Shown piece by piece: positions 3,592 to 28,095 of a stretch of 64,000 bases of DNA (position 1 is its first letter; each line of letters starts with the position of its first letter). The DNA is from Aequorivita todarodis (GTDB lineage Bacteria; Bacteroidota; Bacteroidia; Flavobacteriales; Flavobacteriaceae): contig NZ_JAQQTG010000009.1 in the NCBI RefSeq assembly GCF_028561335.1, positions 1,140-65,139 of the forward strand, read 5' to 3'. The position numbers and the translations under genes were made by a program. Under the pieces are notes generated by a model, which saw nothing but the letters and a program-made list of their open reading frames with translations, was not told the origin of the DNA and ran no database searches.

Positions 3592-6500
3592 ATGAAGACA
3601 CTCATTGTAAGCCTCATTTTTTCAATGTTTTTATTTTCCTGCTCACAGCCTTCAAAAAAGGAAAATGCCACGGAATATACCGATAGCGCGACTACCTTAT
3701 ATTCAAAAATCACTTCTGAAACTTCGCAATTGAATTTCAAAAATGTAATAAAGGAAGATGTAGATTTTAACTTTTTAAATTATACCTATATCTATGTAGG
3801 TGGTGGCGTGGCTGTGGGCGATATTGACAATGACGGGTTGCAGGATCTTTATTTTGTTTCCAGTATGGGCCCCAATAAATTGTACAGAAACAAAGGCAAT
3901 CTCGTTTTTGAAGATATTACAACTACTTCAAAAGCGGAAGACTACAAAGGCTTTTCCACCGGAGCTAGCATGCTGGACATCAACAACGATGGCTGGTTGG
4001 ATATCTATGTGTGCAAAGCAGGATCTGTAAAGGACGATAACGCAAGAAGAAACCTACTGTTCATAAACCAAAAAGACGGTACTTTTAAAGAAGAAGCCAA
4101 AAAGTGGGGCCTGGACGACCCCGGTTATTCCACCCAAGCATACCAGTTAGACTATGATAAAGATGGCGACTTGGACCTATATGTTGTAAACTACCGCTAC
4201 GATTTCAAAAACAACACGACCATAAGCGCCGAGATTCAAAGCCAGATTGAAGAGATTACCAGCGACCAATTATACCGAAATGACGGCACTACTTTCACAA
4301 AAGTAACCGGCGAAGCAAGGTTATACAACAAAACTTGGGGCTTGGCCGCGGCCGTGGGCGATTTTAACAACGATGGCTGGGACGATATTTATGTTTCCAA
4401 CGATTTTCTGGAACCGGACCAGTTGTACATCAACCAAAAAGATGGCAGCTTCAAAAACGAAATAAACAGCCGTATAGACCACATTTCTTTTTATAGTATG
4501 GGTTCAGACTATGCCGATCTCAACAACGATCTTCTCCCAGATCTTTTAACCGTAGATATGACTGCGGAAAACTACAAGCGCAGCAAACAGAATATGGCTT
4601 CAATGGATACCGAAAATTTCTACAAAATGGTGGCCATTGGTTACAACCATCCCTATATGGCCAATATGCTCCATTACAACAAAGGCAACGGAAAATTCAA
4701 TGAAACCGCACTTCTCAGCGGAGTTGCCAAAAGCGACTGGAGCTGGGCGCCGCTCATCGCAGATTTTGACAATGACGGGATGAAGGATATTTTTATTACC
4801 AACGGCGTTATAAAAGATTATACCAATCAGGATTTCAGGACCGAGATGAAGAAAAAAATGGCCAATAAGGAACAGATGACCCTGGAAGCAGTACAAGCTA
4901 TGCTACCCTCCCAAAAACTGAACAATTATATCTATAAAAACAATGGCGACCTTACTTTTTCCAAAAAGATGGAGGAATGGGGAATGGAAGACCCAACTTT
5001 CTCAAACGGAGCAGCCTATGCCGATCTCGACAACGACGGCGATTTGGATTTAATAGTCAACAATATAGACGATGAAGTAGGGCTATACCGAAACAATGCC
5101 AACAATAATTTTCTACAAGTAAAACTGAAAGGCCCAAGCAATAATTCCTTGGGGATTGGCGCAAAAGTGTATGTGAAAAAAGCAGATACCATACAATTTC
5201 AGCAGTTGTATCTCGCCCGCGGTTTTCAATCTTCCGTTACCGATGTACTTCATTTTGGGCTTGGCAAGAATGATAAGGTTGACGAAGTGGTCGTGCAATG
5301 GCCCGATGGAAAAATTTCAAAACTCAACAGCCCGGCGAGTAACAAAATGTACAATTTGGATTATAGCACCGCCACTGCGGGAACCGTTGCGTATCAAAAT
5401 CCCATTTCCAAAAAAGTGAGCTTGGACCCTGCGAGTATTGGGATTGACTATGTGCAGAAAGAGAACGATTTTGACGATTTTACACTGCAACTTCTTATTC
5501 CCCAGAAACAATCCACCAAAGGCAGTGGCCTTGCGGTCGCAGATGTTAACGGCGATGGCTTGGAAGACTTTTTCGTGGGAAATGCCGCCGGAGCCGAAGC
5601 CGCTTTGTACATTCAAAAAACGGATGGCAGTTTTTCAAAAACAAATGAAGCACTTTGGAAAAACAACGCAAAATACGAAGACGCAAACGCACTCTTTTTT
5701 GATGCCGATGGCGATGGCGACCAAGACCTATATGTGGCAAGCGCTGGTTATGAACTGGATGAAAAGAGCCCACTCTTACAGGATAGGCTTTTTGTAAATG
5801 ACGGCAAAGGCAATTTTACTTATAAAAAAGAAGCTTTGCCACCTATGCTCGTTTCCAGCAAAAGCATTGCGGCCGCAGATTTTGACGGCGATGGCGATAT
5901 CGATTTGTTTGTTGGTGGCAATGTGGTTCCCAAAAAATATCCGCTTCCGCCACGCTCCTATCTGCTTAAAAACGAGAACGGAAACTTTATAGATGCAACC
6001 GAAGAAAATCCTTCACTTAAAGAAATCGGGATGGTTTCCGAAGCTGTCTTTACCGATTATGACAACGATAAAGACCTTGATCTTTTGGTAACCGGAGAGT
6101 GGATGGCTCCAACCATTTTTAACAACAACAACGGAAAGTTCACCAAAAATGAAAACATTGCCGGGCTTGAAAATACCGAAGGCTGGTGGTTCACGGTAAC
6201 TGCCGCAGATTTTGATGGAGATGGCGACGAAGATTATGTTTTTGGAAACATAGGCGGAAACAATAAATTCCATCCTTCCGCGGAAAAACCGCTTTTCATT
6301 TATGCCAAGGATTTTGACAGCAACGGCAGTTTTGATGTGGCGATGAGCAAAATAAACGACGGCAGGCTTGTTCCCGTTCGCGGCAAGGAATGCAGCAGCC
6401 AACAGAATCCATTTCTGCTCGATAAAATAAAAAGCTATAAGGAATTTTCCAACTTGGACATGAACGGTATTTACGGGGAGGAAGAACTTAAGGAAGCCTT

Positions 6501-6882
6501 TAAACTAACCTGCCATGATTTTGAAAGTATGTATGCCGAAAACCTGGGCGGCGGAAAATTCAAGGTGAAAAGATTGCCAAACGAAGCCCAGTTGGGCCCT
6601 ACCCTTTCCTTCGTTTCCCGCGATTTCAACAACGATGGAAATATGGATATTATGGGCATTGGCGCCATTTATGATGCCGAAGTGGAAACCATACGTTATG
6701 ACAGCAATTACGGGTATGTGCTGCTGGGCGACGGCAAAGGCAGTTTTAATTTTTCCAGAGAATATGTGCCGTTTATAGCCAGCGATTCAAAAAATATGAA
6801 GGCCATTAAAATAAACGGGAAGGAAATGTATATGGTTGTAAGCAATAATGCGCCCTTGCAAATTTTCAATTTTAAATCGTAG
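3592..6882 (+). CDS. FG-GAP/VCBS repeat lipoprotein with ASPIC/UnbV domain
   Basis: The 1096-residue product starts with a lipoprotein signal (lipobox LFSC, Cys 17), so it is probably anchored in the outer membrane. About 13 calcium-binding-like loops of the form DxDxDGxxDL are spread over its length (near residues 79, 127, 187, 257, 309, 390, 478, 650, 705, 763, 820, 870 and 1008), typical of integrin-like FG-GAP beta-propellers. An ASPIC/UnbV domain lies at about 506-585 ('GIGAKVYV', 'WPDGKISKL'). There are thus two propeller blocks around a central UnbV domain, as in CRTAC1-like proteins common in Bacteroidota, where they often accompany SusC/SusD systems. No SusCD pair is next to it here. 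It reads away from the adhesin gene across a 180-bp divergent spacer. The molecular function is not known; ligand or glycan binding at the surface is an inference. Confidence 0.9.
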   Translation: MKTLIVSLIFSMFLFSCSQPSKKENATEYTDSATTLYSKITSETSQLNFKNVIKEDVDFNFLNYTYIYVGGGVAVGDIDNDGLQDLYFVSSMGPNKLYRNKGNLVFEDITTTSKAEDYKGFSTGASMLDINNDGWLDIYVCKAGSVKDDNARRNLLFINQKDGTFKEEAKKWGLDDPGYSTQAYQLDYDKDGDLDLYVVNYRYDFKNNTTISAEIQSQIEEITSDQLYRNDGTTFTKVTGEARLYNKTWGLAAAVGDFNNDGWDDIYVSNDFLEPDQLYINQKDGSFKNEINSRIDHISFYSMGSDYADLNNDLLPDLLTVDMTAENYKRSKQNMASMDTENFYKMVAIGYNHPYMANMLHYNKGNGKFNETALLSGVAKSDWSWAPLIADFDNDGMKDIFITNGVIKDYTNQDFRTEMKKKMANKEQMTLEAVQAMLPSQKLNNYIYKNNGDLTFSKKMEEWGMEDPTFSNGAAYADLDNDGDLDLIVNNIDDEVGLYRNNANNNFLQVKLKGPSNNSLGIGAKVYVKKADTIQFQQLYLARGFQSSVTDVLHFGLGKNDKVDEVVVQWPDGKISKLNSPASNKMYNLDYSTATAGTVAYQNPISKKVSLDPASIGIDYVQKENDFDDFTLQLLIPQKQSTKGSGLAVADVNGDGLEDFFVGNAAGAEAALYIQKTDGSFSKTNEALWKNNAKYEDANALFFDADGDGDQDLYVASAGYELDEKSPLLQDRLFVNDGKGNFTYKKEALPPMLVSSKSIAAADFDGDGDIDLFVGGNVVPKKYPLPPRSYLLKNENGNFIDATEENPSLKEIGMVSEAVFTDYDNDKDLDLLVTGEWMAPTIFNNNNGKFTKNENIAGLENTEGWWFTVTAADFDGDGDEDYVFGNIGGNNKFHPSAEKPLFIYAKDFDSNGSFDVAMSKINDGRLVPVRGKECSSQQNPFLLDKIKSYKEFSNLDMNGIYGEEELKEAFKLTCHDFESMYAENLGGGKFKVKRLPNEAQLGPTLSFVSRDFNNDGNMDIMGIGAIYDAEVETIRYDSNYGYVLLGDGKGSFNFSREYVPFIASDSKNMKAIKINGKEMYMVVSNNAPLQIFNFKS

Positions 6883-6931
6883 ATTTTGCCTTCCGGCCTC
6901 CCTTTGGGGTGGAGTTTTCAATATAAAATGA

Positions 6932-6983
6932 TGATTTCAAACCAGTTCCTTTTAGGGTTTGGGCAAAAAATAGGTTGAAATCA
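6932..6983. terminator. Inverted repeat between convergent genes
   Basis: TGATTTCAAACC (6932-6943) and GGTTGAAATCA (6973-6983) can pair across a 29-nt loop in the short spacer between the lipoprotein gene and the convergent glycosylase gene. It could end both transcripts, but there is no clear T-run, so this is weak. Confidence 0.25.
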
Positions 6984-7024
6984 AAATCGCAAATTATACT
7001 GTAACAGGACCTCAATATTAATGT

Positions 7025-7684
7025 TCAGAAAAATGGCCTGTACTGCTCCACCCGAAAATCGATGGTGGTTTTTTTGGGAAATTCGGCCTTCATTTTTTTA
7101 TAGGCAGTAAGACTTCCCACCGCCCTATTTGCCGCTCCCGAGGGCGCAATCAAGGAAACGGTTTTTACAGTTCTACCACTATTTGGCATCAGAAATTTAT
7201 GGATGCGCGGCACTTTGTTGGATACCAATTGGAGCGAAATATCGTACTCTTTTAATTTTCTTCGGAAGAAATATTCGGGCCCATTTTTACTGTTTCCACC
7301 AGTAAAAAGGAGGGTATCAATTTTAGGGTTTTGCTGAAGGATGGCAACCAGATCGCGCAGTTCCACTTCCAACATCCCGATGTCCGAGGCATCTACCTTT
7401 TCGCGCTTTGCGGAAGCGACCATATCGCAAATGCCGATGCCTCTTTTTATGAGAAAATTCTCGCGCTGGAGAATAGCTTCAGCAGTCGTTTCAAACTTTA
7501 AATTTAAGTCGAATATTTTGTCCAAAATTGGCCACAGCTGCCCGTCGCGGCTGCCGTAGCAAAAATCCACATCGCCTTCCTTTAATTCCCCAGTTGTGAA
7601 ACGCGGCGGCGGAAGGGTTCCGACAATCAGCTTGGTTGCGGTGTTGGGAATATACGGCGGGTATGGGTGAACGTGGTGGAACAA
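7025..7684 (-). CDS. Uracil-DNA glycosylase superfamily protein (family 6-like)
   Basis: The 219-residue cytosolic protein has the two signature loops of the UDG superfamily in degenerate form. The N-terminal 'IVGTLPPPRF' (about 21-30) sits where family 2/6 enzymes have GxxPG or GSxPS. It is followed by 'FCYGSRDGQLWPIL', the counterpart of the FYYGHPxNRFW stretch of hypoxanthine-DNA glycosylases. The C-terminal 'APSGAANRA' is the DNA-intercalating NPSGLSR-like loop. Such enzymes remove deaminated bases to begin base-excision repair; substrate preference cannot be read here. It lies 47 bp downstream of yaaA on the same strand, which suggests co-transcription with an oxidative-stress gene. The start ATG (MFHHVHPYPPYIP) fits family members. 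Confidence 0.75.
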   Translation of the reverse strand: MFHHVHPYPPYIPNTATKLIVGTLPPPRFTTGELKEGDVDFCYGSRDGQLWPILDKIFDLNLKFETTAEAILQRENFLIKRGIGICDMVASAKREKVDASDIGMLEVELRDLVAILQQNPKIDTLLFTGGNSKNGPEYFFRRKLKEYDISLQLVSNKVPRIHKFLMPNSGRTVKTVSLIAPSGAANRAVGSLTAYKKMKAEFPKKTTIDFRVEQYRPFF

Positions 7685-7731
7685 AGGGAATGTCGATTTG
7701 CGATTTATGATTGACGATTTCAGTTTCGTTT

Positions 7732-8493
7732 TTACCGAATAAAAACTGGCTCCTGCTCCTTCTCGGTATATTTTTCACTAAAACCATAGCCGTCATAATC
7801 AAAAGCTTTCAGTTCATCCAAGGTTTTTACATTTTTATCAATTGCAAAACGACTCATACTGCCGCGCGCTTTTTTGGCAAAGAAGGAAATTATTTTAAGC
7901 TCGCCATTTTTGAAATCCTTGAAAACAGGCGAAATTACCGGAACCTTCAGTTTCTTTTCGTCAATGGCACTAAAATATTCCACGCTTGCAAGGTTTAGGA
8001 AAAGTTCGTCCTCTTTCAGTTCGTCGTTCAAGGTTTTGGTGAGTGTTTTTTTCCAAAAAGCATACAGATCCTTTTTTCGGTTTACGGGAAGCTTGGTCCC
8101 CATTTCCAACCGATAGGGCTGAATTAAGTCCAACGGGCGCAACAGCCCGTACATTCCCGAAAGTATTCGCAACGAATCTTGCAAAAGATCTATTTTTTCC
8201 GAAGGAATGGAATACGCATCCAGTCCCGTGTAAACATCGCCGGCAAAGGCATACACCGCAGGCCGGGCATTCTGTTTTGTGAAGGGGGTATTGAATTCTT
8301 TGTAGCGCTGGTAATTAAGCGCTGCCAATTTATCGCTGATGTCCATTAGTTTGCCAATGGCCTTTTTGCTTTTGCGCTCCAGCTTGTTGTTTATCATTTC
8401 GGCCTCTTCCAAAAATCGGGGTTGGGTGCCGCGGCCAGTGGGAAGTTTGGATTCAAAATCCAGCGTTTTTGCTGGGGAAATTACTATTTTCAT
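7732..8493 (-). CDS. yaaA: Peroxide stress protein YaaA (UPF0246/DUF328)
   Basis: The 253-residue protein starts at the ATG at 8493 ([13 protein letters not shown]), the standard N-terminus of the family. The longer open frame upstream is repeat-derived sequence and is rejected as coding. Family features are the 'ISPAKT' start, '[16 protein letters not shown]' in the middle, '[14 protein letters not shown]', and the '[14 protein letters not shown]' helix near the C-terminus. In Escherichia coli YaaA lowers intracellular free iron during hydrogen peroxide stress and so protects DNA from Fenton damage; the fold binds DNA in vitro. Here it is the upstream partner of a UDG-type glycosylase. Confidence 0.93.
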
Positions 8494-8533
8494 TAAATGC
8501 TTCTTTGCTTCAAAAATAATGAAAAGAATCGGG

Positions 8534-8619
8534 ATTTGGGCCCCGATAGATCGGGATGGGATTTGCGATGTGGAATTTGGAATTTGGGTCCCGATAGCTA
8601 TCGGGATGGGATTTGCGAT
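8534..8619. repeat. Two direct copies of a palindrome-centred repeat
   Basis: A unit of about 36-38 bp occurs at 8534-8569 and 8582-8619. Each copy starts ATTTGGG, carries a palindrome core and ends GATGGGATTTGCGAT. The core is CCCGATAGCTATCGGG at 8590-8605 (perfect 16-bp palindrome) and a shortened CCCGATAGATCGGG at 8542-8555. The same 16-bp palindrome recurs at 36195-36210, so it is a dispersed element. It fills the spacer upstream of yaaA. Confidence 0.8.
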
Positions 8620-8730
8620 TTGAAACATGGCTTTTACAAATGAAGTCAAAAAAATACCCTGAGCTGCCAGAAGAGGTTGCTTGTAAATTTTCCATTGAAC
8701 TTTCCGCATCGTTTTCCCCGCTTCATTCGC

Positions 8731-8758
8731 ACTTCGCATTTCGTACTTCGCATTTCGT
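8731..8758. repeat. 14-bp tandem repeat
   Basis: ACTTCGCATTTCGT is present twice head to tail (8731-8744, 8745-8758), just beyond the end of the DUF3124 gene. It is one of several intergenic iterated words in this window. Confidence 0.8.
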
Positions 8759-8762
8759 ATTT

Positions 8763-9302
8763 TCAATCAATCCTTCTTCCGATTGTGGTAAAACTCAATC
8801 CCTGTGCGCCGCGAAGTGAAGTCATAATTGCCTCAAAAAGAGGCTCGGGAGTGTTGGGCGCCGTAATCCATTCAAAAATAAAATTGGCGCCGCTTCCGCC
8901 GTGGTTGTCGGTTTCATCTATTACTATTTCCACGGTCTCCAAAGGTTTTAGGTAAATGGTTTTTTTAAAATAGCGGCGTATCAAATCGCCGTTGGTGCCA
9001 TAATAATCTGCTTTTGAGATGTAAATAGTATCCGTATCGCTCACATTTCGAAGACTTATCATTGCGGTAAGATTCTGGGTCTTTTTTAATGAGATACTAT
9101 AGATGTGTGAGTAAACGCTTAAGTACGTTTTTCCGGTTTGCAGGGAATCCTGTATGAATGCCGAGATTTTAGGCCCCACATAATGGTCCTCCCAATGGTT
9201 GGGGCTGTAGGAGCTAATTTCCTTTTCATCCTCGCAGGATACAAATATTCCGACAAGGAAAAGGAATGCTGCAATCTGTGATATTTTAAATAATTTTCCC
9301 AT
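8763..9302 (-). CDS. DUF3124 family lipoprotein
   Basis: The 179-residue product has a lipoprotein signal with lipobox FVSC (Cys about 23), so it is exported and lipid-anchored. The body shows the DUF3124 pattern: 'YSHIYSI', '[18 protein letters not shown]', '[13 protein letters not shown]', '[15 protein letters not shown]' and the hallmark '[11 protein letters not shown]'. The fold looks like an all-beta sandwich; its function is unknown. The gene lies 21 bp downstream of a secreted esterase and is probably co-transcribed with it. Confidence 0.85.
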
Positions 9303-9323
9303 TGTTAAATACTCCCTTTAAAA

Positions 9324-10565
9324 CTACTGCTTTTTATTGATTTCGGCTTTTGTTTCCAGCAATTCGTTGATTTGCCATTGGCGTGCCTGATGTTGGTTTG
9401 CCAAGTGCATCGCTTTGTCAATGGCTTCATTTGCTTCAGCTGCGTTGTTTTTTGCTAATTTAACTTTGGCCAAAACGTGGTACGTGTCAAAATTGTTCGG
9501 GTTTACCGCCAATGCCTCGTTTAAAAGCTGTTCGGCCTCCTCATATTTTTTCCCTTCCATAAGGTCGCCGGCTTGGGCATTATTGAACAGTACATAAGCA
9601 TCCGGGCTTATAATCTTAAAAGCATCGGCAACCTTTTTTCGCTCTTTATCGTTTTTTCTTAAAATATAATTTGTGTAGCCTATTACCGAAGGAGCACTGT
9701 TAAAAATATTGCCATACTGCTTTTGCACTTCGGCATAATGGGTTTTTAATTCTTCGGCATCGGAAAAATACAGCTTGTCCAAATACCAGTTTTTAAAAAT
9801 TTCGCCCAAGGCCCATTTATAGGTTGGAAGCCCCACCGAGTTGTGGGTTTCATCGGGAAACTCTTTAAACGTCACGTTTTTGTCCATAATGCTTTTGGGC
9901 ACTTTTTTCAGGAATTCGACCACGCCCATTCCTTTTTCATTGGCAAGCGAAATATACACGCTCGCGGGGGTGCTTCCGGTTTTGCCCCAAGTGTTTTTTA
10001 GCACATCCTCCATTGCATTGTCTGCCCACCACAGCGCGGGGCTGATGGCGATGTAATCATTAAAAAGGTTGGGATGGTTGATGGCGGTATTGATGACAAA
10101 TATTCCGCCAACGGAATGGCCGCCCAAGATTTTATAATCTGCCGTTTTGTAGTTTTTATTTACGTAGGGAATCAATTCCTTTTCAAAAAAACCTGCCATT
10201 TCCTCCGCATTGCCGCTATCTTCCACGCCTTCAATACTGGGCTTGCAGTTTCTGCGGTATTCCTTGGTTCCCTTTCCCGAAAGGGCCACCAAAATCATTT
10301 CGGGAATAAGTTCACTTATCGCACCCTGCAGTTCCAAAAAGCCAGCTACGTACTGAAAGTTATAATCGCCGTCCAAAATATATAGCACGGGATACTTTTG
10401 GTTTATGGAGGTATTATATGAAGGGGGAAGATATACCGAGAATTCCCTGTCCTGTTGCAGTATTTCAGAATAAACCTTGTCCCGTTTTCCGATGGAAATA
10501 TCCTGGGCAAAAACAATTGCCGAACAAAACATTACCAGAAGCAATAGCAATTTTTGATTTTTCAT
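9324..10565 (-). CDS. Secreted esterase (esterase D/Fes-like alpha/beta hydrolase) with C-terminal TPR
   Basis: The 413-residue protein has a cleavable signal peptide (ending VFAQ). An alpha/beta-hydrolase domain of the putative-esterase family (PF00756) follows at about 25-275: 'YPVLYILDGDYNF', nucleophile elbow 'GHSVGG' with Ser near residue 152, and a likely His in 'ETHNSVGLPTY'. The last 100 residues hold TPR-like helices ('AYVLFNNAQAGDLMEGKKYE', 'NFDTYHVLAKVKLAKNN'). Relatives include enterobactin esterase (Fes/IroE) and esterase D, but TPR-tailed flavobacterial versions are mostly uncharacterised. A periplasmic or surface ester hydrolase is likely; a siderophore substrate is only a guess. 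Confidence 0.85.
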   Translation of the reverse strand: MKNQKLLLLLVMFCSAIVFAQDISIGKRDKVYSEILQQDREFSVYLPPSYNTSINQKYPVLYILDGDYNFQYVAGFLELQGAISELIPEMILVALSGKGTKEYRRNCKPSIEGVEDSGNAEEMAGFFEKELIPYVNKNYKTADYKILGGHSVGGIFVINTAINHPNLFNDYIAISPALWWADNAMEDVLKNTWGKTGSTPASVYISLANEKGMGVVEFLKKVPKSIMDKNVTFKEFPDETHNSVGLPTYKWALGEIFKNWYLDKLYFSDAEELKTHYAEVQKQYGNIFNSAPSVIGYTNYILRKNDKERKKVADAFKIISPDAYVLFNNAQAGDLMEGKKYEEAEQLLNEALAVNPNNFDTYHVLAKVKLAKNNAAEANEAIDKAMHLANQHQARQWQINELLETKAEINKKQ

Positions 10566-10627
10566 GGTTCCCTGAACTAGTGGCTGCTACGAATATAATT
10601 CATTTTTATGAATCTATTCCTGTAAGG

Positions 10628-12106
10628 TTATGCGGCTGAAAATTCCAGAATGTTCAAAGCCTTGTACACTTTTTTTATTCCCTTTTTATTTTCCGAAAGT
10701 ACTATTAGCACGTCATCGGCATTAATTACAGTGCTTCCATTGGGGGTAATGTATTTTTCATCTCTTTTTATCATTGCGATAATGGCGGTTTTGGGGAATT
10801 CAATCTCCACAATTTTTTTGCCCACAACTTTGTTTCCGCTTGCAATGCCAATCTCCCGCATTTCGGTTTTGGGATGTTCCTCCAAAAACTTTTCTGAAGG
10901 TGTCCTGATTTTCTCGGCAGCGGGAATACTTACTTTTAGCCATTTTGCAACTATGGAAAGCGTAGTTCCCTGAATTAAAATGGAGGTAAGGGAAATGAAA
11001 AACACGATGTTGAATATCATATTCGCCTTATCAATTCCGGCCAATAACGGATAGGTTGCAAATACGATGGGCACAGCACCCCGCAAGCCCACCCACGAAA
11101 TGTAAAACCGCCTGCGCAATTTCATTCTGAAGGGAATCAAGCTTATAAAAACCGCAGCAGGGCGCGCCACAAAAATCAAGAACAGCGATATTAGGAGCCC
11201 GATGCCAATTACAGGAACAATTTGCGAAGGAAACACCAAAAGTCCCAAGGTCAGGAAGAGTACAATCTGCATAAGCCACGCCAGACCGTCATACATTTTA
11301 AGGATGGTTTTTTTGTGAATCAGGTATTGGTTGCCCAAAAAGAGTGCGCAAATATAAATTGCCAAAAATCCATTGCCGCCCACAAAATCGGTTACTGAAA
11401 AGGTGATGAACATCAACGCAATTACGAGCACCGGGTATAGCCCTTCAAAATCTAAATTTATTTTATTGATAATAATCTTGCTGAGTTTGCCAAAGCCAAA
11501 ACCAGCTATGGTTCCAATAATCATTTGCTGAAAAAACAACGGAATCATCGAGGCCAGCCCTTTGTCCTGGTTGATTACCAACCCCAAAAAGGCAATGGTC
11601 AGCACATACGCCATGGGGTCGTTGCTACCACTTTCCATTTCCAGGGTAGGGCGTAAATTAGTGCGGAGCGCAAGATTTTTGGAACGCAAAATGGAAAACA
11701 CTGCGGCCGCATCGGTAGAAGAAACAATACTTCCCAAGAGCAAACTTTCATAAATGGTAAAATCGGTAACGTAATAAACAAAGGTCCCCAGGCCTACAGC
11801 CGTCAATAAAACCCCAAGGGTGGAAAGCGCGAAACCTTCTTTCATAATGGGCTTTACCGCTTTCCAGTCAGTATCAAGGCCGCCTGAAAAAAGGATAAAG
11901 TTCAATGAAATTATGCCTATCAATTGTGCGAGCTGCGGATCGTTAAAGCTGATGCCGCCTATGCCATCTTCACCTGCAAGCATTCCAATTCCCAAGAAAA
12001 GCACTAAAGTGGGAACACCGAATTTATAGGAGGTTTTGCCCGCAATAATACTTATTAAAAGTAGGATGGAACCAACAAGCAGAATGTTTTCAATGGTTAA
12101 ATTCAA
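10628..12106 (-). CDS. Potassium/proton antiporter, CPA1/NhaP2 type with TrkA-C domain
   Basis: The 492-residue membrane protein has about 12 hydrophobic segments in residues 1-395, starting with a TM helix and the Na/H-exchanger pattern 'FGVPTLVLFLGIGMLAGEDG'. The core motif 'GSIVSSTDAAAVFSILR' and 'LEMESGSNDPMAY' hold the acidic and Asn residues of the ion site. A soluble RCK_C/TrkA-C regulatory domain follows at about 410-490 ('GNKVVGKKIVEIEFPKTAII', 'DVLIVLSE'). This architecture is that of the cell-volume and K+ efflux antiporters NhaP2/CvrA. It probably exports K+ (or Na+) in exchange for protons at the inner membrane. Confidence 0.92.
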   Translation of the reverse strand: MNLTIENILLVGSILLLISIIAGKTSYKFGVPTLVLFLGIGMLAGEDGIGGISFNDPQLAQLIGIISLNFILFSGGLDTDWKAVKPIMKEGFALSTLGVLLTAVGLGTFVYYVTDFTIYESLLLGSIVSSTDAAAVFSILRSKNLALRTNLRPTLEMESGSNDPMAYVLTIAFLGLVINQDKGLASMIPLFFQQMIIGTIAGFGFGKLSKIIINKINLDFEGLYPVLVIALMFITFSVTDFVGGNGFLAIYICALFLGNQYLIHKKTILKMYDGLAWLMQIVLFLTLGLLVFPSQIVPVIGIGLLISLFLIFVARPAAVFISLIPFRMKLRRRFYISWVGLRGAVPIVFATYPLLAGIDKANMIFNIVFFISLTSILIQGTTLSIVAKWLKVSIPAAEKIRTPSEKFLEEHPKTEMREIGIASGNKVVGKKIVEIEFPKTAIIAMIKRDEKYITPNGSTVINADDVLIVLSENKKGIKKVYKALNILEFSAA

Positions 12107-23010: not shown

Positions 23011-23046
23011 AAAAAAAAAGACCATCCTATGTTACAGAATGGCCCT
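23011..23046 (-). terminator. Rho-independent terminator of the four-gene exported operon
   Basis: On the minus strand GGCCAT and ATGGTC pair (one G-U) and are followed by nine T. It lies 28 nt past the last gene of the operon. Confidence 0.75.
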
Positions 23047-23073
23047 TTGTTTATAATAATAAAATTTCAAAAA

Positions 23074-24009
23074 TCAATACCAGCCCCGTATATTATACAT
23101 AACGGTATTGGGTTGGTTTTTGGCATAGGCCATCAGCACGCTTTGCGCTCCTTTGGCAATTTCAATGTTCGCGTCCAATACTTTCAGTTTGTATTCCCAC
23201 GGACGGTCGCTAAGTGTCTTTACCCTACTTTCAATTTTGGAAAAAAGTGATTTTACCTTTGGATAACAAGAGGAAGAAGGTTCAATGCTCGCCAAAATGG
23301 CCCCGGCTTCATTAGCGGCAGCCAGATCTTGGTTTGCAGTCCAAATAGCGGTAGCCTCTGCCAGTTGCATTTCGCAATCGCGGTCTATGGTTTTTTGGTA
23401 CATGGTTTTTAAACTTTTTCCAACTTTGTCATAACAGGTGCTACTGACCGGAACGTTTACCAATAATCCCAAAGCTTCTTCAAAACGATTTTGGTTAGCC
23501 AAGGTATTGGCCTCTTTTTGGATCAGCTCGCAGTTGTCGTTGAAGAAATCAATGATCTTTTGTTTTCCCTCAGTAACAAACAGCTGCACATCCTCGCCAT
23601 TGGTCCTCATATTTTTGATGGCCGCAATGTAGGCTTTGGTCTCGTTGGAGCCCACACCTTTCACATTAAAGCTCTTACTGGTGTAAAGTGTACCATTTAC
23701 ACCATCACCAATATAGAGTGTTATATCAAGGTTAAGTGCAATTTTTGGTGGCGCTGATCCTATTACATCCTTGTTCATTACCGAAACATTCGGAGTAATA
23801 ATGAAACGTGAATTATAGGAAACATCGCTGATGCCGTTTTTAGTAACCATTTGTCCCAGTTTGGTTTCCAGGATTTGTCTGGCAGCTGCAGGCACTTCTG
23901 CCATTTCATAGGGAATGTATGTTCCCAATGCAATATTGGAACTGCTGTTCTGTGCCGTTCCTAGGACGACAGCAAGCAGTAAACAGATTGTAAAAAATAA
24001 TTTTTTCAT
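23074..24009 (-). CDS. Exported protein of unknown function, last gene of four-gene operon
   Basis: The 311-residue protein has a signal peptide (ending LGTAQ). Residues about 25-150 look like an alpha/beta domain of the CsgG/LpoB kind ('AARQILETKLGQMVTKNGI', 'FIITPNVSVMNKDVIGSAPP', 'IALNLDITLYIGDG'), where a short helix is followed by strands carrying the 'rfii' motif. Residues 160-275 form helical TPR-like repeats, with two similar units each holding 'SSTCYDKV' or 'SSSCYPKV'. Extra Cys residues in these units may form disulfides in the periplasm. It is 12 bp downstream of the DUF6175-like gene. CsgG-like similarity is a reading of pattern, not an established hit. No enzyme motif is seen. 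Confidence 0.75.
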   Translation of the reverse strand: MKKLFFTICLLLAVVLGTAQNSSSNIALGTYIPYEMAEVPAAARQILETKLGQMVTKNGISDVSYNSRFIITPNVSVMNKDVIGSAPPKIALNLDITLYIGDGVNGTLYTSKSFNVKGVGSNETKAYIAAIKNMRTNGEDVQLFVTEGKQKIIDFFNDNCELIQKEANTLANQNRFEEALGLLVNVPVSSTCYDKVGKSLKTMYQKTIDRDCEMQLAEATAIWTANQDLAAANEAGAILASIEPSSSCYPKVKSLFSKIESRVKTLSDRPWEYKLKVLDANIEIAKGAQSVLMAYAKNQPNTVMYNIRGWY

Positions 24010-24021
24010 AATGTGGTTTTT

Positions 24022-24978
24022 TTATTTTCCTCCTAAAATAATCGTTGCCCTTCCCAGTCCTTTCATGACCAGTTTGTTGGGTATATTGTAAGGGGCGCTG
24101 CTCAAGAACTTGCTCAAATCCCTCACATATCTTCTTGCGTCGATGGCATTTCCCTGTTCATTGTATAACGGAATTCTGACTTGTTCAAAAAGCGCCATAT
24201 TCTCGGTCATATCTGTAGTGTTGAAGCGGCCTTTAACCGTATTGTTCTGAAGCCAGTCCTCAATAACGAAACCAAGTTCGTCACCACCGCCGTATTCGGT
24301 TTCAAGATCACCGTCCCAGTCGTCCCATTTTTGGATGCGGACGATTATTTCACGTCCGTTTTCGAACATATCGTCAAAATGCGATTGCAATGAAGCCGTA
24401 AAATTGTCCATATGCGAAAGTACTGCTTCTGAAAGGAGCACAGGAGTTTCCGCAGAAAACGAAGGAGCCCCGGTACCTGTTGCCGTAGCAATTTGTTTAT
24501 CTGTATAGGAATCTAACCCCTGAAGGTTAAAGTTGATGGATTTTTTTGGTCCGGTCTTGTTTACCGTCCAAGTAAGTTGGATGATTATATCGGCTTTGGC
24601 AGCTTTTTTGAATTCATCAATGGGGCTTTCGGCTATATCCGACCCAGATTCCTTGGATTGTCTCAAATTGTCCTCGGCACTGTTTGATGATATTGTTTTT
24701 ATTACAGATTCCATGTTTTTCAGTGGAAAACCGCGATCCGCCATCATGCCGTTTATTTGGCTTATAACCTGCAAAACCTCAGGATTTTCCTGAAAGGCGC
24801 GTTTGTAATCGGCAATCTTTTCAGTAGAGCCTTGGTTTTCAAAGGTCATCGCATATCCGTTCTGAATGCACCAGGCATCGCTTGGCACTACCATTAAAGT
24901 CGGTTTTTTGGCCTGACTGAAGGCGATGGTAATGCTAAAAAATGCCAACAGGCAAAGTATTAATTTTGGTTGTTTCAT
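24022..24978 (-). CDS. DUF6175-like exported protein
   Basis: The 318-residue protein has a signal peptide (ending IAFSQ). The start of the mature part, 'KKPTLMVVPSDAWCIQNGY', and 'VISQINGMMADRGFPLKNME' resemble a Bacteroidota family I know as DUF6175. The middle 'AKADIIIQLTWTVNKTG' and 'DSYTDKQIATATGTG' read like the strand and helix layout of CsgG/LpoB-type outer-membrane assembly factors. The C-terminus contains 'KWDDWDGDLETEYGGGDEL', an acidic loop that may bind a metal. It is the third gene of a tight exported operon (12-bp gaps on both sides). Function unknown; a periplasmic structural or assembly role is inferred. Confidence 0.75.
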   Translation of the reverse strand: MKQPKLILCLLAFFSITIAFSQAKKPTLMVVPSDAWCIQNGYAMTFENQGSTEKIADYKRAFQENPEVLQVISQINGMMADRGFPLKNMESVIKTISSNSAEDNLRQSKESGSDIAESPIDEFKKAAKADIIIQLTWTVNKTGPKKSINFNLQGLDSYTDKQIATATGTGAPSFSAETPVLLSEAVLSHMDNFTASLQSHFDDMFENGREIIVRIQKWDDWDGDLETEYGGGDELGFVIEDWLQNNTVKGRFNTTDMTENMALFEQVRIPLYNEQGNAIDARRYVRDLSKFLSSAPYNIPNKLVMKGLGRATIILGGK

Positions 24979-24990
24979 TTGTATCTATTT

Positions 24991-25515
24991 TTAGAACCCG
25001 CTGGTCAGGGATTTGATAATATTTTCTTTTTCGAGTCTTTTTCGCAATTGGTCGCTCATTACGGTAACCACGGCCGCTATTTTATATTCGCGCTTACTTA
25101 CCTTCAACCGGTCTCCAGGGGCAATACTGCCATCGGTTGCGGCGGAAACATATTTTAAGTACTCGCCACCTTCGGCAAAAAAAGCATCAAAAAACGCTTG
25201 GTGCTCCGCTTCTATAGAGGGATCTTTTACCAATGGTTGAAAAGAGGTGCATCCTTGGCCGCCGCCGGCATACCCTTTAAAGATAATTCCGTGCACTGCA
25301 TTGCGCATTGCACTTGAAATGGCGTGTTTGGGATTTTTGGAATACGACCAAACTTTTACCAACTTGGCGCCTTGTTTTGCAATGCCTTCGCACTCTATGT
25401 CATAGCGCCAGATTTTAGTATCTTCCTTCGCCTTTTCCTTTTTCCATTGTGCCTGTGCGCTAAAACTGGCGACAAGCACAAATAAAATAGTTGTAAATAA
25501 ATAAGATGGTTTCAT
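24991..25515 (-). CDS. Small exported protein of unknown function in four-gene operon
   Basis: The 174-residue protein has a signal peptide (ending SAQAQ). 'IWRYDIECEGIAKQGAKLVK' and 'AISSAMRNAVHGIIFKGYAG' suggest a compact alpha/beta fold. The 'AMRNAVHGIIFKG' stretch recalls helices of TPM/CsgG-like domains in which repeated small residues line a surface. 'GCTSFQPLV' and 'CEG' offer two Cys that could pair. It lies 12 bp upstream of the DUF6175-like gene and 14 bp downstream of the first gene. No family could be named. Confidence 0.7.
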   Translation of the reverse strand: MKPSYLFTTILFVLVASFSAQAQWKKEKAKEDTKIWRYDIECEGIAKQGAKLVKVWSYSKNPKHAISSAMRNAVHGIIFKGYAGGGQGCTSFQPLVKDPSIEAEHQAFFDAFFAEGGEYLKYVSAATDGSIAPGDRLKVSKREYKIAAVVTVMSDQLRKRLEKENIIKSLTSGF

Positions 25516-25529
25516 AAATGTTAGTTGTT

Positions 25530-26750
25530 TTAGTTTATTTGTCTAATTAGCATTCCTGCGTAATATTTGTTTTTCGACCCACTGAATGTGGTATATTCAA
25601 GCTCAGAAGTATTTTCTTCATCAGCCATATAGCGATTGTCCCAAATCATATTTTTTTCTACTTTGATGACACCCACCTTATTGTATTCGGTTTTTCCTTC
25701 TTTGTTTATTACCTGTTCCAAAACTTCGTATTTATCGCCTTTCTCCAAACCTTCTTTCAAGCCAATTTTTGCAGAAATAGGATCGCCGCTTAGCAATGGA
25801 GTTTTGGTCCGGAAAACTTCATAGGCTCTTTGCAGTTTGGCAATAACGGCATCCCCAGCTTTTTTGGTGGCAATAGCTATCAATTCGTCATCAGATTTTT
25901 TTGTAAATGCAGTGCTCTGCAAATCGGCCCAAGCGGTCTCAGTTCCAATATATTCAAGTTTAAAGATACTTGAATTTTCAAAGGCTGCAACTTTTTCTGG
26001 ATCCAGTGATGCATCTTCGGTCCAATAATCGTTGTAGAAAATAGCCGCAGTTTCCTCATCCCAAACAAGTCTGTACAAATGTGCGTCTGTTTTGATTACG
26101 TACCCCTTTCCAACTACACCAACTCCCACACTTGTCGCATCGGCCGCCAAACTAACACCGCCTGCTCCTGCTGCAGAAGCTGCTGAGGAAACTGCCGACA
26201 ACAATCCAGTTGCTTTTTTTGCAACTTCTTCTTTGTTAGTGTACTTAAAATTGTTGACCACAACAAAAGTGTTCTTTAAAAGCTCTTCGCCAGCATCGGC
26301 AACCATAGCCAAGCCACGCTCGCTCTGTTTTGCTATTTTAATATCGATATCGGAAGCGCTATAGGAACCCCGTGCCGCAACCAAATCCATATTGAATCCT
26401 CCTGCCTCACTTCTGTTGAACCATTTGGCCACCATGGTCTTTGCTATGGCATTGTTGGCCAGAAATTGGGTAATGGAATCTTTTTGGAGTTCGTTGATTT
26501 CCTTTTTCGACAAACTTTCATCAACCAATTTAGGCAGGGTACGCAACTCAGCGTTGTGATCGTTGAATTTGTCGGGAATTGGGTAATTGATAAACGCTTC
26601 CTGAATCGTCTGGCTGTGCTCTTGTTGCAGGTCGGAAACCATAAAAGTGTACAGGGAGCTTCTTTTGTAATTGTTCAGATTGGCCGCATCTTGACCAAAA
26701 ATAACGGAACTGGCGCCAAAAAATATGGCGAGCGTAAGTAGTCTTTTCAT
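25530..26750 (-). CDS. Exported protein of unknown function, first gene of four-gene operon
   Basis: The 406-residue protein has a signal peptide (ending VIFGQ). The front half is mixed helix and strand. A Gly/Ala/Ser-rich hydrophobic stretch at about 180-215 ('SAVSSAASAAGAGGVSLAAD') is flanked by charged segments and could insert in or cross a membrane. The C-terminal half has 'KIGLKEGLEKGDKYEVLEQV' and 'VGVIKVEKNMIWDNRY', a strand-rich module like the LpoB/FlgT C-terminal domains that end in an outer-membrane-facing SH3-like barrel. The gene begins the operon, and a nested palindromic region lies upstream. Family unknown. Confidence 0.75.
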   Translation of the reverse strand: MKRLLTLAIFFGASSVIFGQDAANLNNYKRSSLYTFMVSDLQQEHSQTIQEAFINYPIPDKFNDHNAELRTLPKLVDESLSKKEINELQKDSITQFLANNAIAKTMVAKWFNRSEAGGFNMDLVAARGSYSASDIDIKIAKQSERGLAMVADAGEELLKNTFVVVNNFKYTNKEEVAKKATGLLSAVSSAASAAGAGGVSLAADATSVGVGVVGKGYVIKTDAHLYRLVWDEETAAIFYNDYWTEDASLDPEKVAAFENSSIFKLEYIGTETAWADLQSTAFTKKSDDELIAIATKKAGDAVIAKLQRAYEVFRTKTPLLSGDPISAKIGLKEGLEKGDKYEVLEQVINKEGKTEYNKVGVIKVEKNMIWDNRYMADEENTSELEYTTFSGSKNKYYAGMLIRQIN

Positions 26751-26784
26751 AATAGATAATTTGGTTAGTATTTTTTTTAAAGTT

Positions 26785-26851
26785 CCAATATTACGAAAAT
26801 CTTCATACTAATGATTACGGAAAACCGTAAAGCGGATAAAAAAATCGTAAT
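26785..26851 (-). promoter_or_regulatory. Nested palindromic control region upstream of the exported operon
   Basis: ATTACGA (26790-26796) and TCGTAAT (26845-26851) form an outer inverted repeat. TTACGG (26815-26820) and CCGTAA (26825-26830) form an almost concentric inner hairpin. On the minus strand TAATATTG (26785-26792), one base off the Bacteroidota -7 consensus TAnnTTTG, overlaps the downstream half-site. The four TTACG-type half-sites are about 40-100 bp before the ATG, as expected for a repressor or LytTR-type regulator. The regulator is unknown. Confidence 0.5.
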
Positions 26852-27017: not shown

Positions 27018-27899
27018 TTAGCTTGCCATTTTAAGCAACCTCCATAGCTTTTTGGAGGCCATCACGGTCACTAAACAAACAAACCCAACCACCAGCCCCA
27101 CAACAAATTCCAAAATAAAGGAAGGCAGTTGCGGCAAAAAATGGTGAAAGAAATCAACATTATGGACAAAAATTCCCCCCGAAACCAAAATTAGGGCTAT
27201 AGTACCAATAACGCTGAGGCTCTTTATTACCTTTGGAAGCGCTTGCACCAAAAAAGTGCCCAGGATTTTTAAAAACCCCTTTTCTTTTTTGCTGCGCTTT
27301 ATCAAATTATAACCCGCCTCATCCATACGTACAATCAGCATCACGATGCCGTAAACGCCTATCGTGGCCAAAATAGCAATAATGCTCACCACTATAATTT
27401 GGGTGCCGATAGGCTCCTTAACAACAGTTCCCAAAGCGATAATCACAATTTCCAGGGAAAGGATGAAATCGGTTACTATGGCAGATTTTACACGTACCTT
27501 TTCAATCGCCAAAATTTCACTTTCAGTAAGCCCTTCGTCCACAACTGAATCTTCGGAATGTGTATGCGGAAAAAAGAACTCTTGTATTTTTTCTGCGCCT
27601 TCATAGGCCAAATAAAGCCCCCCAAGAATTAAAACCACGGTTACGGCCACTGGCAGAAAGGCACTCAGCAAAAAAGCTATTGGAAGGATGATAAGTTTGT
27701 TTAGGAACGAACCTTTTGTAATGGCCAACAGGACGGGTATTTCGCGTGAAGAAGCAAAGCCCGAAGCTTTTTCGGCGTTCACCGCCAAATCATCCCCCAA
27801 AATTCCCGCTGTTTTTTTCGCAGCCACTTTGCTCATCATTGCCACATCGTCCATCAGTGCGGCTATGTCGTCCAGTATTGCGAAAAATCCTGATGCCAT
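27018..27899 (-). CDS. DUF808 (YedI-type) inner-membrane protein
   Basis: The ATG at 27899 gives 293 residues starting MASGFFAILDDIAALMDDVA, the family's conserved N-terminus; nine extra codons upstream are not needed. Other family marks are 'SKVAAKKTAGILGDDLAVNA', 'REIPVLLAITKGSFLNKLII' and 'GGLYLAYEGAEKI'. About seven hydrophobic segments follow from residue 75 to the end. DUF808 proteins (YedI in Escherichia coli) are inner-membrane proteins of unknown function. It is a monocistronic unit. Confidence 0.92.
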   Translation of the reverse strand: MASGFFAILDDIAALMDDVAMMSKVAAKKTAGILGDDLAVNAEKASGFASSREIPVLLAITKGSFLNKLIILPIAFLLSAFLPVAVTVVLILGGLYLAYEGAEKIQEFFFPHTHSEDSVVDEGLTESEILAIEKVRVKSAIVTDFILSLEIVIIALGTVVKEPIGTQIIVVSIIAILATIGVYGIVMLIVRMDEAGYNLIKRSKKEKGFLKILGTFLVQALPKVIKSLSVIGTIALILVSGGIFVHNVDFFHHFLPQLPSFILEFVVGLVVGFVCLVTVMASKKLWRLLKMAS

Positions 27900-28095
27900 A
27901 CGTTTTTTACTATAAATTTTGAGCAAAAATAAACAAGTTGCCTTGAAGAAGTTTAATTTATAGCAGCGAATTATATGGCTCGGAAAAAACTACTTCCAAA
28001 TGCTGTTTTCGCAAGGCCCAATTTAAAAGTGCTCAAATGCCATTTCTTAAGCAACGGCTCAAAATTTTGCAAGGGAAGGCCTGAAATATAAGCAA

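Follow-up and report, generated by a model that had tools for sequence, protein, structure and literature searches.

Four genes that lie in a row in the flavobacterium Aequorivita todarodis raise the question of what their products, each apparently exported and three of them from unnamed families, do together. The genes, called G1 to G4 in the order of transcription, occupy the minus strand of a stretch of 64,000 nucleotides, referred to here as the window (positions 1,140 to 65,139 of NZ_JAQQTG010000009.1, RefSeq assembly GCF_028561335.1), which was placed in contig C51 of the 3.33 Mb, 99.87%-complete source genome. An earlier note, made from the letters of this DNA alone, had described an exported operon with a nested palindromic control region, and its interpretation as a whole is partly supported by our analysis. 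G1-G4 do form one conserved operon. What this operon encodes is a more tentative matter, and the answer that we put forward as a serious possibility, though not yet a probable one, is an inducible, exported complex of the periplasm that is associated with the outer membrane.

G1-G4 are one conserved operon

The four minus-strand open reading frames (ORFs) are G1 (25530..26750, 406 aa), G2 (24991..25515, 174 aa), G3 (24022..24978, 318 aa) and G4 (23074..24009, 311 aa), separated in this order by 14, 12 and 12 bp, which confirms the row of four genes that the earlier note had read along the plus strand with gaps of 12, 12 and 14 bp. Its single terminator at the operon end is also borne out, as a rho-independent-type structure on the minus strand (23016..23048) that combines a stem of 15 pairs with a T-run. 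This stem is the longest among seven terminator-like sites in the region, where shuffles average 4.8 sites, and the stretch has a folding z of -3.2, with one of 200 shuffles equally stable. All four proteins begin with the signal peptide that had been claimed for them, a Sec-like N-terminus ending near ...Q, and none carries a lipobox, both features being judged by eye rather than with a signal-peptide program. G2 has no Pfam family, and G3 is the DUF6175 protein that had been anticipated (PF19672, E 1.4e-126, 422 bits against a cut-off of 23, model positions 1-293 of 293). G3 is also the most conserved member, with a mean column identity of 64% compared to 35-47% for G1, G4 and G2.

A scan of an 84,980-species collection with G3 yielded 72 loci, a set that was seeded by conserved G3 peptides and thus favours good G3 relatives; among the relatives fetched, Aequorivita antarctica is the nearest one here (98% in G3). 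Using phmmer, G1 was found in 71 of these loci, G2 in 72 and G4 in 70, and the neighbourhood survey that the earlier note had suggested gives a clear outcome, with the four genes complete and in the same order and strand at 69 loci. The three incomplete examples (L075, L084 and L085) are contig edges inside the operon. A second G2-type gene, G2b, is present in 33 of the 72. Clustering of ORFs of at least 90 aa, up to 6 kb on each side of the 72 loci, revealed no further genuine gene family conserved beside the operon, as the next-largest clusters were antisense shadow ORFs and then mixed ABC-type proteins in 14 loci (identities by eye).

The DUF6175 family occurs in 19 of 395 genomes of a draw from the phylum, the window's own locus included. 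In 17 of these 19 loci, DUF6175 has a G2-like sequence next to it or fused with it (E 0.01), the other two being L006, where none was found, and L020, where that gene falls below threshold (E 0.92). G4 or a distant G4-type family is present in all 19. The operon is therefore patchy across the phylum yet travels nearly whole.

Some loci show arrangements of their own. A piece of G1 immediately precedes DUF6175 in L006, where the operon order may thus be rearranged. Tandem G1 paralogues lie upstream of G2 in the Flavobacterium species of L051, L052, L055 and L091, the last with a short second G1 piece only. Downstream of G4, an exported gene pair is common to L032, L036, L041, L046 and L079, encoding a beta-helix-like protein and a repeat protein with a tail resembling those of the type IX secretion system (by eye). 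The gene that precedes the operon in the window, a DUF808 gene at 27018-27926 (PF05661, 1.4e-90), is found beside it in only two of the 72 loci (L022 and L023). The literature searched, with most subscription journals and preprints outside its coverage, contained no published description of the G1-G4 operon and no mention of DUF6175.

Predicted architecture of the exported proteins

The AlphaFold2 (AF2) model of G1 (predicted local distance difference test 77.1; predicted template-modelling score 0.73) combines a CsgG/TolB-N-like domain with a small C-terminal beta-barrel. In structure comparison, the first two ranks are held by an LPHT-ring chain and FlgT, with 218 and 227 residues aligned and both domains spanned, and CT253, CsgG, PelBC and TraT rank lower. 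With moderate confidence, the model suggests that G1 is a FlgT-like scaffold protein. The earlier note had seen CsgG/LpoB-like patterns in two of the proteins. The CsgG/TolB-N-like domain of the G1 model may correspond to part of this description, but Pfam lists CsgG (PF03783, limit E 10) and LpoB (PF13036) for none of G1-G4, nor does it list LPP20 (PF02169), and the genome's own CsgG match is another gene (C8:124057).

G1-G4 could also be read as an export or outer-membrane assembly machine, wherein G1 would be a CsgG-, PelC- or LptE-like gate or chaperone for a substrate encoded elsewhere and G2-G4 would be accessory. We regard this as unlikely, although it keeps a modest chance. The LPHT-ring chain and FlgT outrank CsgG by about one Z unit, the 72 loci share no conserved cargo gene in the stretch examined, and the lipobox that G1 lacks in the window is also missing, as judged with a crude pattern, from 50 of 53 members. 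Unlike the lipoproteins CsgG, PelC and TraT, then, the window proteins show neither a CsgG match in Pfam nor a lipobox by eye; no search was aimed at curli partners.

Other lineages provide hints of where the four proteins reside. G1 carries a C-terminal extension resembling a short outer-membrane beta-barrel in L084 (2790-4910) and L090 (3901-5457), as judged by eye, and extensions of about 77 residues in L086 (2856-4469) and about 165 residues in L088 (3281-4864) whose barrel character is less clear. The L084 protein has no Pfam match, and an OMP_b-brl_2 match in the G1-position protein of L200 (E 5.2e-4) is under the Pfam cut-off, in a protein whose link to G1 is weak. It is moderately well supported that such an extension, where present, would fix G1 in the outer membrane. 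Moreover, 11 of 27 G2b proteins are lipoproteins by the crude lipobox pattern, which the other families rarely contain (1-4 of 53-59). Because of the barrel-like extensions and the G2b lipoboxes, we favour, short of proof, the inner face of the outer membrane as the probable place of G1-G4.

Contact between two of the proteins is suggested by gene fusion. Nine genomes (L011-L019) encode a single protein of 411-485 aa whose N-terminal part is G2-like and whose C-terminal part is DUF6175, and L020 is by appearance a likely tenth example, although its G2 part is below threshold. Such fusion of neighbouring genes counts as standard evidence of binding between the separate proteins, and because of the fused chain in these distant genomes it is strongly indicated that G2 and G3 would bind each other. 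We gave no weight to a weak match to HTH_CodY in 25 of 59 members of the G2 family (best 1.5e-4), since such a domain would be implausible in an exported protein.

The fusion is the sole evidence of contact, and each protein has its own export signal (by eye), as would be expected if G1-G4 were separate exported stress proteins that have a promoter in common but form no complex. This seems rather improbable in view of the strict co-conservation and order over a wide phylogenetic distance, the G2-like partners and G4-type neighbours that accompany DUF6175 in 17 and 19 of 19 loci, and the fusion itself.

G4 consists of an N-terminal domain and a TPR-like helical part. The TPR-like model ARM_TT21 is matched in 25 of 58 G4 members (best 1.6e-5), although the window's own G4 is without a match. 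Beside the G2-DUF6175 fusion lies a G4-type protein of about 450 aa, and both examples tested have an N-terminal LPP20 domain (L192, 6.7e-6; L200, 5.9e-10). The window G4 aligns to the C-terminal domain of these proteins and not to LPP20, and in profile comparison the C-terminal domain of the distant G4-type protein aligns with the N-terminal domain of G4 at 86-92%, a value derived from three sequences only.

Searches against known families otherwise returned little. Pfam scans of all members of the family sets A1, A2, A3 (that of G2) and A5 gave scattered weak matches, the TPR-like models for G4 excepted; NCBIfam had nothing above chance level for G2 and G3 and no match at all for G1 and G4; and sequence searches of the PDB with a single G4, with G1 and with five profiles gave chance-level matches only. 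Profile-profile tests against CsgG, LpoB and LPP20 families built from phylum genomes were mostly weak, the profiles comprising 8 of 19, 29 of 30 and 25 of 30 sequences, respectively (LPP20 in length classes of 9, 10 and 6), with the others dropped by length. That the four proteins are LpoB-like regulators of peptidoglycan synthesis is very doubtful. The G1-position protein of the distant operon L196 does match LpoB (2.8e-9) and CsgG (1.8e-8) and is reached by the G1 profile at E 6.6e-4 over its full length (37.8% in profile comparison with that single protein), but this link breaks up into two segments that are each weak (i-Evalues 0.87 and 0.068), the L196 gene may be a replacement, no window protein lists LpoB, and G1 compares with the LpoB profiles at 0.5-0.6%, the highest value among the other families being 26% for G2b over 12 columns.

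A parallel exported cluster of LpoB and LPP20 genes was observed in Bacteroidota (L190, L191, L193, L194, L198 and L199), mostly with a gene for a TPR-like lipoprotein between or beside them (by eye). It resembles G1-G4 in that exported small-domain proteins and a TPR-like protein share one cluster, a likeness to which the LpoB-like protein of L196 and the LPP20 domains of the L192 and L200 proteins add. However, the window proteins match none of these families, and the gene set differs.

The promoter palindrome and a candidate two-component regulator

Four TTACG/CGTAA half-sites, the number given by the earlier note, lie upstream of G1 between 26760 and 26900, where 0.30 would be expected from the window's own rate, although this stretch was chosen after the fact. 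The inner pair forms a perfect palindrome of 16 nt (26815..26830; coding strand TTACGGTTTTCCGTAA), with 64 bp separating it from the G1 start codon, and is the candidate operator. The nesting that had been described holds less well for the outer half-sites TTACG (26791..26795) and CGTAA (26846..26850), which are asymmetric about the palindrome centre (31.5 versus 27.5 bp) and degenerate in three relatives of the Aequorivita type, which preserve the inner palindrome better (both arms in two of the three, with two changes in L023). The outer half-sites may help a regulator to bind, but they are poorly conserved.

The source genome contains five copies of TTACGGN4CCGTAA, all with a TTTT core, and none of the backwards control. 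The other four copies, with unrelated flanks, are at 7321, 7992 and 9871 of contig C40 (L098) and at 25437 of C38 (L099). The C40 copies precede a small ORF, a gene resembling type I restriction R subunits (HSDR_N, 3e-16) and cas1-cas2 (5.1e-27 and 5.8e-17), and the C38 copy precedes a small ORF read as a TM2-type membrane protein, with DUF4407 further downstream. These copies and their neighbouring genes were noted at L098 (C40) 4669-11144 and L099 (C38) 8938. Before orthologous operons, where the earlier note had proposed to search, half-site density across all relatives is slightly raised, at only 2.07 versus 1.39 per kb, and tolerating one mismatch leaves the operator no more frequent than its reversed control (9 versus 8). 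Only exact sites discriminate from the control. Of the five across the loci, four stand 58-140 bp before G1 (L021, L022, L079 and L089) and one lies elsewhere (L088).

Beside the C40 copies, on another contig than the operon, a TPR histidine kinase and a response regulator are encoded (C40:4669-6990). In L079, a Croceivirga metagenome-assembled genome, a matching pair stands directly before an identical palindrome and G1, and its regulator is 47% identical to that of the source genome over its length; the receiver domain scores 40.2 bits in the L079 protein against a cut-off of 30.2, and 20.7 bits, below the cut-off, in the source genome's copy. In L089, where the palindrome is 140 bp before G1, a related kinase truncated at the locus end lies 2 kb away (31% identical over 439 positions), with no regulator gene within the locus stretch examined. 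A survey of 149 family genomes placed the site in 56 of them, the backwards control in 28 (mostly once) and the regulator in 61. Among the sites listed, 22 of 75 are within 1 kb of a response-regulator gene, compared to roughly 0.05 expected if genomes are 3.5 Mb and placement is random, and no regulator match appears in 10 of the 41 genomes from which listed sites come. The palindrome TTACGG-4-CCGTAA also shares its 6-bp arms and 4-nt spacer with the ComA site, a TTGCGG-4-CCGCAA inverted repeat according to PMC4797271. Because the pair adjoins the sites, both here and in L079, because so many sites are near a regulator, and because the geometry is ComA-like, we think that the response regulator binds the palindrome. 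These neighbourhoods argue strongly that the kinase-regulator pair turns on G1-G4 transcription, with a regulator dimer on TTACGGN4CCGTAA upstream of G1.

The LytTR control raised in the earlier note is unsupported for this promoter. A LytTR-like regulator (by reading) and a kinase do adjoin the operon in L046, with matches to that regulator in L033, L034, L040 and L044. A two-component-like gene lies within the locus stretch examined in 12 of the 72 loci, a count given without a background rate, and other two-component genes near the operon are those of L036, L042, L046, L083 and L195.

Twelve kinase-regulator regions (L239-L250), selected for a site near the regulator and hence not a sample, indicate what else may be controlled. 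L245 contains TerY (5.3e-54), PP2C (1.4e-26) and protein kinase genes, with a DUF4407 gene further on, L250 a TerB-like gene just below the Pfam cut-off, and L242 a kinase-AAA gene, and an exported protein of 240 aa recurs in L241, L242, L248 and L249 (by eye). With kinase, regulator and operator accompanied by varying gene sets, these regions look like a regulated cargo slot of flavobacteria. These gene contexts suggest that the regulator governs a stress or defence regulon, whereas PADLOC models assign G1-G4 to no family at E 0.01. A bolder and decidedly improbable extension is that G1-G4 would be the envelope arm of an undescribed flavobacterial two-component regulon that switches interchangeable stress and genome-defence modules, here also with sites before cas1-cas2 and the restriction gene and, in a relative, with TerY, PP2C and kinase genes. 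The four proteins would then form an H-ring-like scaffold beneath the outer membrane, independent of any flagellum, and defend the envelope against phage or other attack.

A possible outer-membrane-associated complex and its meaning

In the inducible complex that we tentatively favour, a signal sensed by the TPR kinase would activate the response regulator, whose dimer would bind the palindrome upstream of G1 and switch on G1-G4. All four proteins would then be exported, G2 would pair with G3, G1 would supply the FlgT-like scaffold, and the TPR-like part of G4 would bridge as an adaptor. More weakly, it could be proposed that G2/G3 and G4 assemble on G1 into a ring- or disk-shaped structure that lies against the outer membrane on its inner face, because the literature depicts such a ring for FlgO, FlgP and FlgT. 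According to PMC7990780, the first two are lipoproteins of the outer membrane and FlgT is periplasmic, their joint ring being needed for outer-membrane passage and anchoring. The assembly would be comparable to the one these proteins form around the flagellar motor, but flagellum-free, and might perhaps brace or gate the envelope.

Like the H-ring of the sodium-driven polar flagella of Vibrio, to which the two-domain match of the G1 model points, G1-G4 are a set of small exported envelope proteins, and the Campylobacter flagellar scaffold likewise has a TPR-like member, PflA (same source). Unlike the H-ring proteins, G1-G4 show no FlgO or FlgP match and form a separate inducible operon. Flagellin (PF00669, Flagellin_N) has no match in the source genome, whereas four of 14 control genomes are positive.

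The FlgT alignment of the G1 model covers residues 96-354 of 3w1e only, leaving the N-terminal domain of FlgT uncovered; because of this, and of the missing flagellin, we do not class G1-G4 among FlgT systems. Since exact copies precede G1 in just four of the 71 G1-bearing loci (L066 and L075 include almost no upstream sequence), the palindrome is not general and other lineages use other control. In contrast to ComA-type (NarL/LuxR) regulators, the DNA-binding part of the regulator has no Pfam GerE match in either L098 or L079, the latter listing DUF5932 at 0.0046, although the regulator next to distant operon L195 does match GerE, and binding is deduced from gene neighbourhood.

DUF6175 and three unnamed families become one testable unit, with a predicted FlgT-like architecture, a predicted G2-G3 pair, and a candidate regulator and DNA site. 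If true, the regulon link would provide a handle on the induction of defence and stress modules in flavobacteria, and an H-ring-type ring without a flagellum would bear directly on the origin of flagellar outer-membrane rings.

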